Part shown: positions 3,783 through 13,868 of the stretch, piece after piece
Position numbering within the stretch: position 1 is the first letter of the stretch
Layout of the letters: each line of letters starts with the position of its first letter
Origin: a virus
Virus record (IMG/VR): IMGVR_UViG_3300008262_003020
Coordinates: 1 to 41,599 of that record
DNA length: 41,599 nucleotides
Reading direction: 5' to 3' (one strand)
Notes under the pieces: generated by a model
Told to the model about the DNA's origin: nothing
Database searches by the model: none
Seen by the model: the letters and a program-made list of their open reading frames with translations, nothing else
Translations under genes and position numbers: made by a program

Positions 3783-4076
3783 TTAATTAATTAGCATTCT
3801 AACTAGGCCGAATGCATCAATCGCGGTCAGCAAGATGTAGTTAGCCAACATGCCAAATGATTTCCTAGTATAAGCAGCCCAAGCATACATAGCACAGCCA
3901 GTGATCCACACAGGATATAACGCGAGTAGTGGCGGATTGGGGACGGTGACGGCCATAGTGATACTGCACCCAATAGACACAGCCCAAGCAAGTAGTTCAA
4001 TAAAAAACCGAAAGGGATGAGTATGGTAGTCATCTCTTATCCAATCTATAGTGGGTTTAAAAACATCAATGATCAT
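3783..4076 (-). CDS. Small integral membrane protein, conserved in T4-like phages
   Basis: A 97-residue protein with three or four hydrophobic segments: about 25-45 (FIELLAWAVSIGCSITMAVTV), about 48-68 (PPLLALYPVWITGCAMYAWAA) and about 76-94 (MLANYILLTAIDAFGLVRML). The N-terminus, MIIDVFKPTIDWIRDDYHTHPFR, is amphipathic and charged and is probably cytoplasmic. Its ATG overlaps the dsbA stop codon by four bases (ATGA), so the two genes are translationally coupled. I recall similar proteins in marine T4-like phages but no proven function. It does not show holin-specific features and lies far from the lysis genes. Confidence 0.75.
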   Translation of the reverse strand: MIIDVFKPTIDWIRDDYHTHPFRFFIELLAWAVSIGCSITMAVTVPNPPLLALYPVWITGCAMYAWAAYTRKSFGMLANYILLTAIDAFGLVRMLIN

Positions 4077-4336
4077 TCAGGAAGACGTTTTGTCACACCA
4101 AGAATCATTTCAATGTCATTCCATTCTTGTTCGTGATCTTTCCAGTTATCTTTGTGTGCAATAGAAATTGCTTTATTGATAACGCTAGGTTTAATTTGGA
4201 GTTCTTCAGCAACTGCTTTAACAGTTTCTTTGAGCCCTTCTTTAAGATCCTCTACTTCACGCAATACATTACCGCCTTCGTTGATAAGACGTTCTAGTTT
4301 TGCTTTTTCTTCGGGCCCGTACATTCTGGTTGACAT
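4073..4336 (-). CDS. dsbA: Double-stranded DNA-binding protein, late-transcription enhancer (DsbA-like)
   Basis: An 87-residue charged, all-helical protein; T4 DsbA is 89 residues. The core from about residue 24 to 70 (EVEDLKEGLKETVKAVAEEL, then IKPSVINKAISIAHKDN) has the helix-turn-helix-like pattern shared by marine phage DsbA proteins. In T4, DsbA binds DNA near late promoters and increases late transcription. The ATG has AGGAG 8 bases upstream. The gene heads its own unit: a sigma70-type promoter (4358-4386) and a terminator for the preceding unit lie just upstream, and the membrane-protein gene follows by ATGA overlap. Early expression fits a factor needed before late transcription begins. 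Confidence 0.8.
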   Translation of the reverse strand: MSTRMYGPEEKAKLERLINEGGNVLREVEDLKEGLKETVKAVAEELQIKPSVINKAISIAHKDNWKDHEQEWNDIEMILGVTKRLPE

Positions 4337-4357: not shown

Positions 4358-4386
4358 ATTATATAGTCATAAAAAAAGCCAGTCAA
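4358..4386 (-). promoter_or_regulatory. Sigma70-type promoter of dsbA embedded in a terminator
   Basis: On the minus strand TTGACT (4381-4386), an exact 17-base spacer, and TATAAT (4358-4363). The -35 box lies in the loop and descending arm of the terminator hairpin and the T-run forms much of the spacer. Expected transcription start is near 4351, giving a short leader with AGGAG before the dsbA ATG. The -10 region also sits in a short inverted repeat (GACTAT/ATAGTC). Confidence 0.75.
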
Positions 4387-4404
4387 CCTGTGACTGGCCT
4401 TTTT
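4371..4404. terminator. Bidirectional Rho-independent terminator
   Basis: GCCAGTCA (4378-4385) pairs perfectly with TGACTGGC (4391-4398) around a 5-base loop. A run of seven A lies on one side and CTTTTT on the other, so it can act on either strand. It ends the unit containing the 280-residue charged protein (start 5263), while its bases also carry the dsbA promoter. Confidence 0.85.
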
Positions 4405-4420: not shown

Positions 4421-5263
4421 TTACTTTTGTGCTTCGCTTAGTACATCGTACATTTCAAACACACCACCGTTGCGCTCATATACCAAACCTGCGTATAGGT
4501 CAGCTTTCATGCCTTCGCCTAGTTTGTTCTTGGCCACACGTTCAGCCCAGGTAAACAGAGCTTTGTCAACTGGATCGATCTGTTGTTGGCCACCGCTTTC
4601 TTGTACCAACTGTACCATTTGTTTGAAAGATAGTTTTGTTTCTACACTTTCTTTCACTGGACGCTTTTTGCCTTTTGGCATCATTGCGCTTTCTGTTTTC
4701 TTACCAAAGTATTTGGCCTGCTTGTCGCTCATGCCTTTCTTGCCAGCTGGCTTGTCATCGCCTTTGTCGGCAGCAGCTTTTTTCATTGGCTCTTTCTTGT
4801 CGCCGTCTTTGTCAACGTCTAAGAAGTCTGGCTTGGAACCTTCTGCCATTTTCTCTTTCTTAGCCATTTTCTTTTTCTTATCAGCAGCTTCTTCTTTCTT
4901 GGCTTCGACCATCTTCATGAACTTGCTTTTAAATTTCTTCTTTGGCTTGTCATCTTCGTCATCAGCTTCTTTTTCTTCACTGCCACCATAGGCCTTGCTG
5001 CTTTTGTGAACAATACCTGTTTTTGTTTTTTCAACAGTACCAGTAGCGATGTTTTTCTTATCGCCTACTTTCATATCGTCCGCTTCTTTAACGTCTTCTT
5101 CAGCTTTCTTTTTAGCTTCAGCAACGTAAGTAGTACGGCCGCTTAGAACACGCAATTGTGCATCTTCATTTAATTGCACAGATTTTGGCAGCTCTGGTGC
5201 TTTTGGAGTATCGATTTTACCGTCGATACTTTCTATTTTGCTGATTAACGATTTGAAGTCCAT
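4421..5263 (-). CDS. Lys/Glu-rich modular phage protein with an EF-hand-like DxDxDG motif
   Basis: 280 residues from the ATG at 5263, chosen because TAGGA lies 8 bases upstream; a GTG two codons earlier is too close to that site. Residues 50-210 are low-complexity and highly charged, rich in K, E, D and A. They contain FLDVDKDGDKKEPMKKA, a calcium-loop-like motif that I recall recurring in unrelated marine T4-like phage proteins, and DKQAKYFGKK, another recurrent module. The C-terminus (about 220-280, KLSFKQMVQLVQESGG onward) is more ordered. Function unknown; location among shuffled proteins and a late-type promoter upstream suggest a head-associated or internal protein. It is followed by a strong terminator. 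Confidence 0.75.
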   Translation of the reverse strand: MDFKSLISKIESIDGKIDTPKAPELPKSVQLNEDAQLRVLSGRTTYVAEAKKKAEEDVKEADDMKVGDKKNIATGTVEKTKTGIVHKSSKAYGGSEEKEADDEDDKPKKKFKSKFMKMVEAKKEEAADKKKKMAKKEKMAEGSKPDFLDVDKDGDKKEPMKKAAADKGDDKPAGKKGMSDKQAKYFGKKTESAMMPKGKKRPVKESVETKLSFKQMVQLVQESGGQQQIDPVDKALFTWAERVAKNKLGEGMKADLYAGLVYERNGGVFEMYDVLSEAQK

Positions 5264-5289
5264 GTTCACATTCCTAAAAGTGTATTATG

Positions 5290-10350: not shown

Positions 10351-12021
10351 CTATTTATCGCATACTACAAAGTTATACACCCTGCCTACGACCTCTGCAC
10401 TGCGCAATTTCAGCATTAACAGCATGGATTCGTCTTCAACTAATATGTATCTACGATCCCAATTCCAGTCAGTGGTTAAAAACCATTTTTCAATAGCAGC
10501 TGTACACGTAACTTTAGGCTGTTGTAATTTCAACCAGTTTAGATATTTCTGCTTGCCTTCACGATCTTTAGACATTTTATGAGGTAATAGATACACACGA
10601 TACTGATATCTGCCTTTAGGTAACTTATCTACAGTAATGGAGTTCTGCGAATCTTTGAGAATTTCTGCATTCGCTACACTGGGTTGGAATCGATGTACTA
10701 ATTCTAATTGACACCGTACAGATAACGTTTCATAAAAATCTGCGTCATTGGTATAGATGTCTAATCGACTGCGTTCGACTCTAAGAGCATACGTGTCTTT
10801 GTCGTATGCCGCTAAAAAATCACAGAGATTAATGATGGCATCTTTGTTAGCCACAGCTTTGCGGTAACTGACATAATATATAGAGTCGTCTTCCTTGTAA
10901 TTGTTTAAAATTTCCGGAATGTCTTCTACAGCATATGTTCGCAACATCACACAGCCGTCTAATGACAAGCTGACTTTGTACAACCATTTACCGTAGAACT
11001 TACGATTCGTTAGTTTGGTCTTCTGCACAGTGAAGTCCAGTTTATCATCGACGATGTCGACGGTTACTCTGCCGCCATTTACTAGGTCGCCAAACAGAAC
11101 TCTACGACTTAGTGGAGATTTAATTTCGTTGTCTATGATCCTAGCCAACGGTCTCGCTCCCATCTTTTTGTCATAGCCTCGATCGGCTAACCAGCGTGTG
11201 GCCTTGGCATTAACTACAATCTCTATGCCTTTGTCTTTGAGTTGGCTGTTGAGATCAGCCACAAACTTCTTAACGATCTGGATAACAGTATCGCCGCTGA
11301 GTTTCGAGAACTTGATTACAGCATCTAATCTGTTACGGAATTCTGGACTGAAATGCTTCTTAATAGCTTTGTCATCCTCTCCATCTCGTTCTAACTCACC
11401 GAACCCGATAGTGTTAAGTTCGTTGTCTGCGGCTCCGAGGTTGCTGGTCATAATCAAAATAGTATTGCGACCATCTGCTACTTTACCGTTTGAACCAGTG
11501 ACAAAACCATTATCCATAAACGCCAACAAGATATTACTTACATCTGGATGTGCTTTTTCAATTTCGTCTAACAGCAATATGCTGTTGGGATTTTCCTGAA
11601 GCTTGGTAATCAACATACCGGCATTGTCTTCATAGCCTACATAGCCCGGAGGAGCACCGATCAGTCTTGCGACTGAATGCTTTTCCTGATACTCGCCCAT
11701 GTCGAACCGAACCAGCTGCATGCCCATCTTATCTGCTAATTGTTTGGCAGTTTCTGTTTTGCCGCAGCCAGTAGGTCCGAGGAATAGAAATGAGCCGATA
11801 GGCTTATTGGGACTCTTCATGCCTGCTTGCGATACAAATACTTTGTCCAATAGTGTTTCCACTGCTTGGTCTTGACCGTAAACTACACCTTTCATTTGTG
11901 TGTCGAGGTCAGCAAGGTTCTTGGATTCTTTCTGAGCTACTGTTTCCAATGGCATGTTGATCATCTTACTCAGCTCGTATGTGACCTGTTCTATATCGAC
12001 AATCTGTGCTACACCTTCCAT
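10351..12021 (-). CDS. clpA: Clp-type AAA+ unfoldase, second ATPase module fused to a phage-specific domain
   Basis: 556 residues from the ATG at 12021; the frame is open slightly further upstream. Residues 1-335 are a complete ClpA/ClpB-type D2 module: VVYGQDQAVE linker, Walker A GPTGCGKT (82-89), pore loop GYVG (126-129), Walker B LLLDEIE (149-155), sensor-1 TSNLG (192-196) and the C-terminal small domain with GARPL (288-292). Residues 335-556 are unrelated to Clp proteins. I recall this segment (KFYGKWLYKVSLSLDG, then YQYRVYLLPHK and WFLTTDWNWDRRY) as a free-standing protein in related phages, so this looks like an in-frame fusion. The first half of the protein is in another frame (12009-12959), and part of module D1 is missing between them. 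Confidence 0.8.
   Translation of the reverse strand: MEGVAQIVDIEQVTYELSKMINMPLETVAQKESKNLADLDTQMKGVVYGQDQAVETLLDKVFVSQAGMKSPNKPIGSFLFLGPTGCGKTETAKQLADKMGMQLVRFDMGEYQEKHSVARLIGAPPGYVGYEDNAGMLITKLQENPNSILLLDEIEKAHPDVSNILLAFMDNGFVTGSNGKVADGRNTILIMTSNLGAADNELNTIGFGELERDGEDDKAIKKHFSPEFRNRLDAVIKFSKLSGDTVIQIVKKFVADLNSQLKDKGIEIVVNAKATRWLADRGYDKKMGARPLARIIDNEIKSPLSRRVLFGDLVNGGRVTVDIVDDKLDFTVQKTKLTNRKFYGKWLYKVSLSLDGCVMLRTYAVEDIPEILNNYKEDDSIYYVSYRKAVANKDAIINLCDFLAAYDKDTYALRVERSRLDIYTNDADFYETLSVRCQLELVHRFQPSVANAEILKDSQNSITVDKLPKGRYQYRVYLLPHKMSKDREGKQKYLNWLKLQQPKVTCTAAIEKWFLTTDWNWDRRYILVEDESMLLMLKLRSAEVVGRVYNFVVCDK
10352..10359 (-). promoter_or_regulatory. Late-type promoter motif GATAAATA abutting a start codon
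   Basis: Minus-strand GATAAATA overlaps the clp stop codon and ends four bases before the ATG at 10347. If active it would start transcription at or just inside the ATG, so a leaderless message or chance occurrence must be considered. Confidence 0.4.
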
Positions 12022-12959
12022 GCCTTCATCGTCTTTGAGTTTGTATCTTGCACATTAGCCATGTCGTTGGAACTGCCGTTGGCAGCACCTGCACCATTCA
12101 TCATATGTGCTTCATCTATGAATAGAATAATCTTGCCTTTCTTTTCTAACGCAGCCAATACAGCTTTGACTCGTTCTTCAAAGTCACCACGATACTTAGA
12201 TCCTGCAAGTAGAGCACTGATATCTAAGGTGTAGACTTGATGGTCTTTGATAAATTTAGGAACCTTGCCCTCGTGGATCTTACGAGCAATGCCTTCTGCA
12301 ATAGCAGTCTTACCAACACCTGGATCACCTACCATTAATACATTGGCTTTGTTTCTACGTGCTAATACCAGTTGTATTTTTTCTATTTCGTCATCACGCC
12401 CAATCACTGGATCAAGTTTTCTCTGTTTAGCCTTGAGACTGAGATTGGTACAGAATTGATTCAGTATGCGATCTATCTGGGTGGTGTTGACTATGCGTGT
12501 TTCTACTTCTGCGTCTTCGGCGATTTGTACATTTTCTTGGAAATATTTTACAAATTTTTCTTTGGTTACTCCAGCTTTGGTAAGAAAGTAGTAACCGAAA
12601 CTGTTTTTCTCTGACAGCACACTGATAATGATATCTGCGATTTCCATACGCTGTCTACCACTAAACAGCACCTGTGTAAAGCAGCGATTTAACACTCGCT
12701 CAACACTGTTGGTCTTTTTAGGCTTGGCATTAGCATTGGTGGTTTTAATATCATTGAGATTGTTTTTTAAATAGTGTTCGATATTTGTTTTGACAAATTT
12801 AGCATCGGCACCGAAACTTTCTAACAGTTTATAAGAATCTTCGTCCTCCATGATACCATATATGATATGTTCAATGGTTATGTATTCATGGTTGAGAGTC
12901 TTTGCCATCTCAATGGATTTTTCAAAGATTTCTTGTAGACTCTTGCTGGGTTCAATCAT
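12009..12959 (-). CDS. clpA: Clp-type AAA+ unfoldase, N-domain and truncated first ATPase module
   Basis: 316 residues. Residues 1-145 are a Clp N-domain (double helical repeat, HEYITIEHIIYGIME). D1 then begins: VIGRDDEIEKIQLVLARRNK, Walker A GDPGVGKT (211-218), pore-loop region SKYRGDF (254-260) and Walker B ILFIDEAH (278-285). At about residue 302 (DMAN) the frame departs into 14 unrelated residues and stops. The rest of D1, including sensor 1 and the arginine finger, is absent, and the second module resumes in another frame at about 12050. In a functional protein ClpA unfolds substrates for ClpP. The start overlaps the dnaJ stop (TAATG), so a chaperone/unfoldase operon is clear. Broken or misassembled; the fragment itself is unmistakable. 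Confidence 0.8.
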   Translation of the reverse strand: MIEPSKSLQEIFEKSIEMAKTLNHEYITIEHIIYGIMEDEDSYKLLESFGADAKFVKTNIEHYLKNNLNDIKTTNANAKPKKTNSVERVLNRCFTQVLFSGRQRMEIADIIISVLSEKNSFGYYFLTKAGVTKEKFVKYFQENVQIAEDAEVETRIVNTTQIDRILNQFCTNLSLKAKQRKLDPVIGRDDEIEKIQLVLARRNKANVLMVGDPGVGKTAIAEGIARKIHEGKVPKFIKDHQVYTLDISALLAGSKYRGDFEERVKAVLAALEKKGKIILFIDEAHMMNGAGAANGSSNDMANVQDTNSKTMKAWKV

Positions 12960-13798
12960 TAGATATTTCCTTGTTTAATCTGTTGTATTAGGTTGATTTG
13001 TTCAGGCTGTAGGAGCTTTGGTATTGATACTTTTATTCGTATTAACATATTACCTCGCTGCCGTGTACGCATGTTAGGCAGACCTTCGCCTTTGCAACTG
13101 AGCACTGTGTCTGGTTGTGTACCAGGCGGCAATTTTATGGATAGTGTCTTGTTGTCTAAAGTCTGAATATCGATGCTGGCTCCTAGCAGGGCATCCCACA
13201 CACTGACTTCTCGATCTATGATCAGTGATGTGCCTTCACGTCGATATCTAGAGTGTTCTCTAACTACAATGTTCACTAACAAATCCCCTGGCTTAAGACC
13301 GGGGATTGAATCGTCGCCCATACCTTCGTATCTAATCTGTTGTCCGTGTTCTATGCCCGGCGGGATCTGAATGTTGATCATTTTATTTTTGCCGGGTATT
13401 GACACCTCAGCAGTGAAATCTCTGCCGCTGAGCACATCTTCTAAGGTAATTTCTACATTGATGTTCAATGATCTATTTCTTCGCTGAGGCTGTCGACCAA
13501 ACCCACCGAATCCAAAATTACCGAAAATGTCATTCATATTACCTGTGTTGAAATGAAACTCAAACGGGCTTTGTCCAAAGCCTCCTGCACCTGGTTGTGC
13601 GTTCGGGTCTCCACCGAGGTCTATAATTTGTTTTTTCTGCGGATCACTAAGGTACTCGTATGCCTGTGATATTTCTTTGAATTTCTTTTCATCACCACCT
13701 CGATCTGGATGGTACTTCATAGCCATGCTTCGATATGCTTTTTTTATTTCAGCGTCACTGGCGTTTCTTTGTAATCCTAAGGTTGCGTAATAGTCCAT
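12959..13798 (-). CDS. dnaJ: DnaJ/CbpA-type co-chaperone (Hsp40)
   Basis: 279 residues. The J-domain (1-65) starts directly with MDYYATLGL and has the invariant HPD at 30-32. A Gly/Phe-rich linker follows (about 69-110, FNTGNMNDIFGNFGFGGFG), then two beta-sandwich substrate-binding domains (about 115-265) with VNVEITLEDVLSG-type and LPPGTQPDTVL signatures. There is no CxxCxGxG zinc region, so it is the CbpA/type II form. It stimulates the host DnaK ATPase. It is coupled to the clp unfoldase by TAATG overlap. A sigma70-type promoter inside the preceding terminator puts the predicted transcription start on the A of the ATG, and there is no Shine-Dalgarno. Confidence 0.93.
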   Translation of the reverse strand: MDYYATLGLQRNASDAEIKKAYRSMAMKYHPDRGGDEKKFKEISQAYEYLSDPQKKQIIDLGGDPNAQPGAGGFGQSPFEFHFNTGNMNDIFGNFGFGGFGRQPQRRNRSLNINVEITLEDVLSGRDFTAEVSIPGKNKMINIQIPPGIEHGQQIRYEGMGDDSIPGLKPGDLLVNIVVREHSRYRREGTSLIIDREVSVWDALLGASIDIQTLDNKTLSIKLPPGTQPDTVLSCKGEGLPNMRTRQRGNMLIRIKVSIPKLLQPEQINLIQQIKQGNI

Positions 13799-13804
13799 GT
13801 ATGT

Positions 13805-13833
13805 AGTATATGATAAAAAAAGGACTGTGTCAA
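13805..13833 (-). promoter_or_regulatory. Sigma70-type promoter of dnaJ-clp inside a terminator hairpin
   Basis: Minus-strand TTGACA (13828-13833, a perfect consensus -35), a 17-base spacer and TATACT (13805-13810). The -35 box occupies the loop of the terminator hairpin and the T-run fills much of the spacer, the same plan as at dsbA. Seven bases separate the -10 box from the dnaJ ATG, so the expected start point is the ATG itself. Confidence 0.75.
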
Positions 13834-13845
13834 GCAGTCCTTTTA
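13814..13845. terminator. Bidirectional Rho-independent terminator between the lysis-region genes and dnaJ
   Basis: AAAAGGACTG (13818-13827) pairs perfectly with CAGTCCTTTT (13835-13844) over a 7-base loop, flanked by A- and T-runs. On the minus strand it ends the unit coming from the lysis genes and 13869-14093. Confidence 0.85.
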
Positions 13846-13868
13846 TTTAATTAGAAATTTACTGAGCT

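Follow-up and report, generated by a model that had tools for sequence, protein, structure and literature searches.

A stop signal for incoming transcription and the promoter of a gene start, both predicted from the sequence, share about 40 bases before the dnaJ gene of a T4-like aquatic phage. The overlap between putative terminator and putative promoter is confirmed as real and conserved. We consider it probable that the site acts as an insulated gene start, at which read-through would be terminated and the gene's own early start, and probably a late one, would remain open. This reading is supported by the observed motifs, their spacing, their conservation and the compensatory changes in the stem.

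The window, i.e. the whole stretch of DNA analysed, is a virus record of 41,599 bases. A T4-type DNA polymerase, a clamp loader and a DsbA-like protein are its T4-like markers, and a 2,576-aa protein has an N-terminus of the gp9/10 type. The minus strand carries 39 of the 41 genes in the ORF set of the window. No close relative of the dnaJ region was found in the phage collection searched. The upstream neighbours of dnaJ are genes for an endolysin, a holin-like protein and a DUF4337 protein, the last with a late-type box. Most relatives share the order endolysin-DUF4337-holin-small ORF-dnaJ-clp, which is thus largely conserved. In the window, the ClpA/B-like gene (10351-12959, minus strand) is split into two ORFs, with an internal deletion of about 300 nt and a frame change relative to contig L003. 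It is a single ORF of 750-789 codons in the 11 relatives checked, and the split is either an assembly error or a real deletion. The phage also carries genes for an Fe/Mn superoxide dismutase (40026-40583) and a UvdE UV-endonuclease (40819-41574), both on the minus strand.

Anatomy and conservation of the dnaJ composite

On the minus strand, the sequence before dnaJ reads TTAAATA-AAAGGACTG-CTTGACA-CAGTCCTTTTTTTATCA-TATACT-ACATAC-ATG (Table 1). A preceding sequence-only reading had described a perfect TTGACA in the loop, 17 nt from TATACT, with the T-run in the spacer, and our coordinates agree with it. The RNA fold of the hairpin has a free energy of -12.5 kcal/mol (z = -4.4), and none of 200 shuffles was equally stable. 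In a sigma70 promoter scan, the dnaJ promoter scores 11 of 12 and ranks joint first in the first 20 kb. A MotA middle promoter was considered and rejected: TGCTTGA is present in the loop, but it lies 19 nt from the -10, which counts against it on the generally known MotA spacing, and it is lost in relatives with CTACTTGAC.

Table 1. Positions of the predicted elements at the dnaJ and dsbA sites and of boxes close to start codons
Feature	Position	Strand	Remarks
Probable T4-type late promoter box TTAAATA	13844..13850	minus	abuts hairpin; predicted start about 13838, inside 5' arm
Terminator hairpin (predicted), dnaJ	13818..13844	minus	5' arm AAAAGGACTG 13844-13835; loop CTTGACA 13834-13828; 3' arm CAGTCCTTTT 13827-13818
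Seven-T run, dnaJ	13815..13821	minus	putative terminator tail, within promoter spacer; T-run after stem also in aligned relatives
-35 TTGACA, dnaJ	13828..13833	minus	wholly within hairpin loop; TTGAC kept in most relatives
-10 TATACT, dnaJ	13805..13810	minus	spacer exactly 17 nt; TATAAT in most relatives
dnaJ	12959..13798	minus	Pfam DnaJ 1.1e-22 and DnaJ_C
Hairpin of dsbA composite	4375..4401	minus	stem AAGGCCAGTCA/TGACTGGCTTT, loop CAGGT
-35 TTGACT, dsbA	4386-4381	minus	from loop into 3' arm, mostly in 3' arm
-10 TATAAT, dsbA	4358..4363	minus	from promoter scan
Shine-Dalgarno AGGAG, dsbA	4349-4345	minus	ordinary leader
DsbA-like gene	4073..4336	minus	PHROG 639 transcriptional regulator 1.2e-10; Pfam Phage_DsbA below cut-off
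[AG]TAAATA 4-5 nt before ATG, window	gene starts 5502, 10350, 40583	minus	predicted leaderless late mRNAs
[AG]TAAATA 4-5 nt before ATG, HTVC008M (NC_020484)	19456, 31132, 49760, 18916, 16007		predicted leaderless late mRNAs

The DnaJ relatives were collected by protein and not by motif, and most of them have the composite in front of the gene. Most relatives retain TTGAC, the T-run and TATAAT while the letters of the stem vary, G-T pairs included. Across 12 hairpin types, pairs 3-10 are always paired, and both sides have changed in five of the ten pairs. The compensatory nature of these changes supports the view that the composite is kept by selection.

The same variation bears on another reading of the inverted repeat, as an operator bound by a protein over the -35 and not as a terminator. 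A nearly symmetrical repeat centred on the -35 would suit an operator. However, the stem letters vary with compensation that includes G-T pairs, a feature of RNA pairing unlike a sequence-specific operator, and a T-run follows the repeat on the dnaJ side; we regard the operator as very improbable.

Several relatives arrange the parts in other registers. In L040-043 and L052, the -10 TATAAT occupies the loop with TTGACA upstream, and in L044 the -35 lies in the 5' arm; in all of these, too, the predicted start is 3' of the 5' arm. L018 has the stem without a -35, and L034-036 have the hairpin without a recognisable sigma70 promoter. The terminator and the promoter are therefore separable, and the early promoter is not essential, since these relatives have lost it and kept the hairpin. 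Upstream of the hairpin, CTCAGTAA is present in many relatives, and it is not generally enriched upstream of genes.

The dsbA site and the distribution of the plan

The sequence-only reading had also seen the same plan at dsbA, with different stem sequences. The stems do differ, and a hairpin, a T-run and a promoter are combined there as well, but the likeness is only approximate because the register is shifted, with TTGACT mostly in the 3' arm, and the gene has a Shine-Dalgarno leader. The stem of this composite is kept in 80 of 80 relatives as one of two compensated types, GCCAG/CTGGC (22) or GCCGG/CCGGC (58). The DsbA-like gene is the first after the composite and overlaps the next ORF (3783-4076) by 4 nt; that this ORF could be gp33 was an idea from gene order only, and comparison with an approximate T4 gp33 sequence, not used as evidence here, gave no match. 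The gene upstream of the composite (4421-5269) also carries an ATAAATA late box. In L286, L297, L299 and L303, an extra gene lies between the composite and dsbA, with a PGDYG domain in L303, the sole one scanned.

Within genomes, the composite is rare. A scan for a hairpin, a T-run and sigma70 hexamers, each matching at least 5/6, returned two composites in the window and none in 300 first-order Markov shuffles. The simpler letter pattern proposed by the sequence-only reading matches the record exactly twice, at dnaJ and dsbA, and the reversed control not at all. In 23 related records, that pattern recovers the dnaJ and dsbA sites plus scattered further matches, most of which lack the spacing or a clean stem. 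A structure-based scan of the 281-, 195- and 163-kb records gave a clean stem at dsbA in three of three and at dnaJ in two of three, besides scattered imperfect stems near the shuffle level. Two relatives have about 20 strong sigma70-like promoters each within 100 nt of gene starts, almost none of which overlaps a terminator, and in the 281-kb relative only those at dnaJ and dsbA form clean composites.

These counts weigh on the proposal, made in the sequence-only reading, of a portable cassette spread through the genome and inserting early genes between late units. Two copies do occur in the window, the same plan precedes other genes, of early type, in other viruses, and four contigs have an inserted gene separating dsbA from its composite. 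At dnaJ, a lysis block with a late-type box is followed by a host-type promoter for dnaJ-clp, so that an early unit behind a late one is plausible as judged from motifs and gene content. Genome-wide use did not hold up: records of up to 281 kb contain at most the same two clean composites, about 20 other strong promoters near gene starts lack an overlapping clean terminator, the two stems differ, and gene order at dnaJ is largely fixed. Within genomes, the cassette is thus largely refuted, and we give it very little credence.

Across viruses, the plan is more widely distributed. We scanned IMG/VR with TTGACN{0,6}GCCTTTTTTN{2,9}TATAAT, which demands neither a hairpin nor a fixed spacing. Among 56 unique sites, the spacer is 17 nt in 43 (7 expected) and a hairpin is present in 44; these tallies count homologous sequences as separate observations, and a nominal p-value for the spacing would be too small because the sites are partly homologous and not independent. 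The genes that follow include dsbA (9), dnaJ (5), D12 DNA adenine methyltransferase (10), a gp45-like sliding clamp (3) and others. As judged by these motifs, many aquatic phages have the plan at early-type genes, in few copies each, and this group has it in two places only. The strict pattern has no match in T4, KVP40 or Aeh1, a weak comparison since T4 early promoters have a different -35. The plain pattern also matches in Atu_ph07, S-PM2 and HTVC008M; these matches were set aside, several having non-17 spacing and all representing the letters of the pattern only.

A simpler account would be a plain intrinsic terminator beside a plain promoter, their overlap having no effect on regulation and reflecting only how tightly a dense genome is packed. 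The separability seen in L018 and L034-036, where the hairpin stands without a sigma70 promoter, and the other promoters of these phages that have no terminator would fit it. Nevertheless, the overlap is maintained in several registers at dnaJ, and unrelated genes show the plan again with the spacer fixed at 17 nt, which makes compaction unlikely in our judgement, though less so than the operator or the cassette.

The closest known kind is the promoter early stem-loop (PeSL), a composite of early promoter and terminator motifs in T4-like phages (Arbiol et al. 2010; Comeau et al. 2014, Genome Biol Evol; both as cited in PMC4503421), described there as densely clustered where genes are intensely shuffled. 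As in that description, the dnaJ composite joins a host-type promoter, of predicted early timing, to a terminator stem-loop in a T4-like carrier, at a boundary where gene content may change. Relative to the same description, each record here holds at most two clean composites, with no dense set in shuffled regions and with the order at dnaJ largely conserved; the composite is therefore not filed as a PeSL, in spite of its predicted PeSL-like working. Compared with PeSLs as the citing paper presents them, the -35 lies in the loop or 3' arm, the T-run falls in the spacer, the dnaJ copy is predicted to be leaderless and a probable late box is present, so that we describe it as a tighter variant.

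Late boxes and predicted leaderless starts

When 19 upstream regions are aligned, TAAATA directly in front of the hairpin stands out as the one long block without any variation. Among 7-mers ahead of genes in these phages, ATAAATA shows the strongest enrichment (about 21-27-fold), and TATAAATA-like boxes are over-represented there in sense orientation. In the 281-kb relative, ATAAATA occurs 31 times in sense and 10 in antisense orientation (1.4 expected), and TTAAATA 16 and 5 times (2.2 expected). The T4 late promoter consists of a TATA-type box of 8 bp, placed roughly one helical turn ahead of the start (gp55/gp33/gp45; PMC2988020). The enriched 7-mer and the TTAAATA abutting the dnaJ hairpin resemble it, but the dnaJ box differs from it in the first base and many boxes here lie 5 nt before an ATG. 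Whether TTAAATA before dnaJ is active as a T4-type late promoter is, in our estimate, about evenly balanced, the counterpoint being its difference from the commonest late box, ATAAATA. Farther upstream, CTCAGTAAAT (13851-13866, minus strand) precedes the late box in many relatives and is inverted (TTACTGAG) in L020-022.

The late start was placed from the commonest box-to-ATG spacing in the 281-kb relative. In the window, the folding energy is -1.1 kcal/mol for the predicted late RNA and -12.0 kcal/mol for the read-through RNA; in 12 of 17 sequences, the corresponding ranges are -1 to -5 and -11 to -14.6 kcal/mol.

The ATG of dnaJ lies 6 nt past the -10 and has no Shine-Dalgarno sequence. Because of this short gap and the absent Shine-Dalgarno, the dnaJ mRNA should be leaderless or nearly so. 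At all 31 unique dnaJ-stem sites, the distance from -10 to ATG is 5-9 nt (5-7 in 26), again without a Shine-Dalgarno, and in the 281-kb relative it is exactly 6 nt at five sigma70-like promoters, dnaJ included. The inserted genes of L297 and L303 likewise have their ATG 6 nt past the -10 of the dsbA composite. Gene starts in the metagenomic records are ORF-rule predictions.

The spacing between ATAAATA and the ATG has a bimodal distribution in these phages, being either 3-8 nt (mostly 4-5) or at least 18 nt; the close sites nearly always lack a Shine-Dalgarno, and the distant ones mostly have it. In HTVC008M, eight of 17 boxes lie exactly 5 nt before an ATG, and many of these ATGs coincide with deposited gene starts, including those of the tail tube cap, baseplate wedge, DNA end protector and tape measure. 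ATAAATA 3-8 nt before an ATG was found at no site in T4 or KVP40, at 1/25 in S-PM2 and at 3/44 in Atu_ph07, and the exact 5-nt spacing in none of these four. Boxes of the form [AG]TAAATA 4-5 nt before ATG were also seen in the G004 record of L012.

Leaderless mRNAs have been reviewed (PMC9031893), and the present cases resemble them in having the AUG at or near the predicted 5' end without a Shine-Dalgarno; the difference is that here they are predicted from promoter spacing only, for early- and late-type promoters of one phage group. In a partial literature search, no account of leaderless late genes in T4-like phages was found. We tentatively suggest, at slightly less than an even chance, that in this phage group and the pelagiphage HTVC008M a large share of late and several early promoters have their +1 at the A of the start codon, leaderless mRNA being a genome-wide strategy. 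The dnaJ composite would be its extreme, with two promoters, early and late, woven into a single terminator and the RNA from either one beginning past the point at which the full hairpin can form.

Proposed working of the dnaJ site

In the insulated gene start that we favour, termination, start sites, leaderless translation and late-box activity are all inferred from sequence. A polymerase arriving from the upstream lysis-gene block would transcribe both arms of the hairpin and stop at the T-run. A host-type (sigma70) polymerase would use TTGACA in the loop together with TATACT and start at or beside the A of the dnaJ ATG, so that the locally started RNA would be leaderless and free of the hairpin. 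The probable late promoter TTAAATA before the hairpin would start inside the 5' arm, and the late dnaJ RNA would thus lack a complete terminator. A polymerase halted at the T-run would, however, occupy the promoter, and mutual interference instead of simple insulation is also possible.

As proposed, the element would keep late read-through out of dnaJ-clp and give these genes a host-type start. With about 40 bp, a T4-like phage could in this way begin a host-type transcript behind late-type genes and still keep read-through out. The late promoters of SAR11 myophages were not predictable with earlier methods (PMC7029224), and through the predicted leaderless late genes they now become directly testable.
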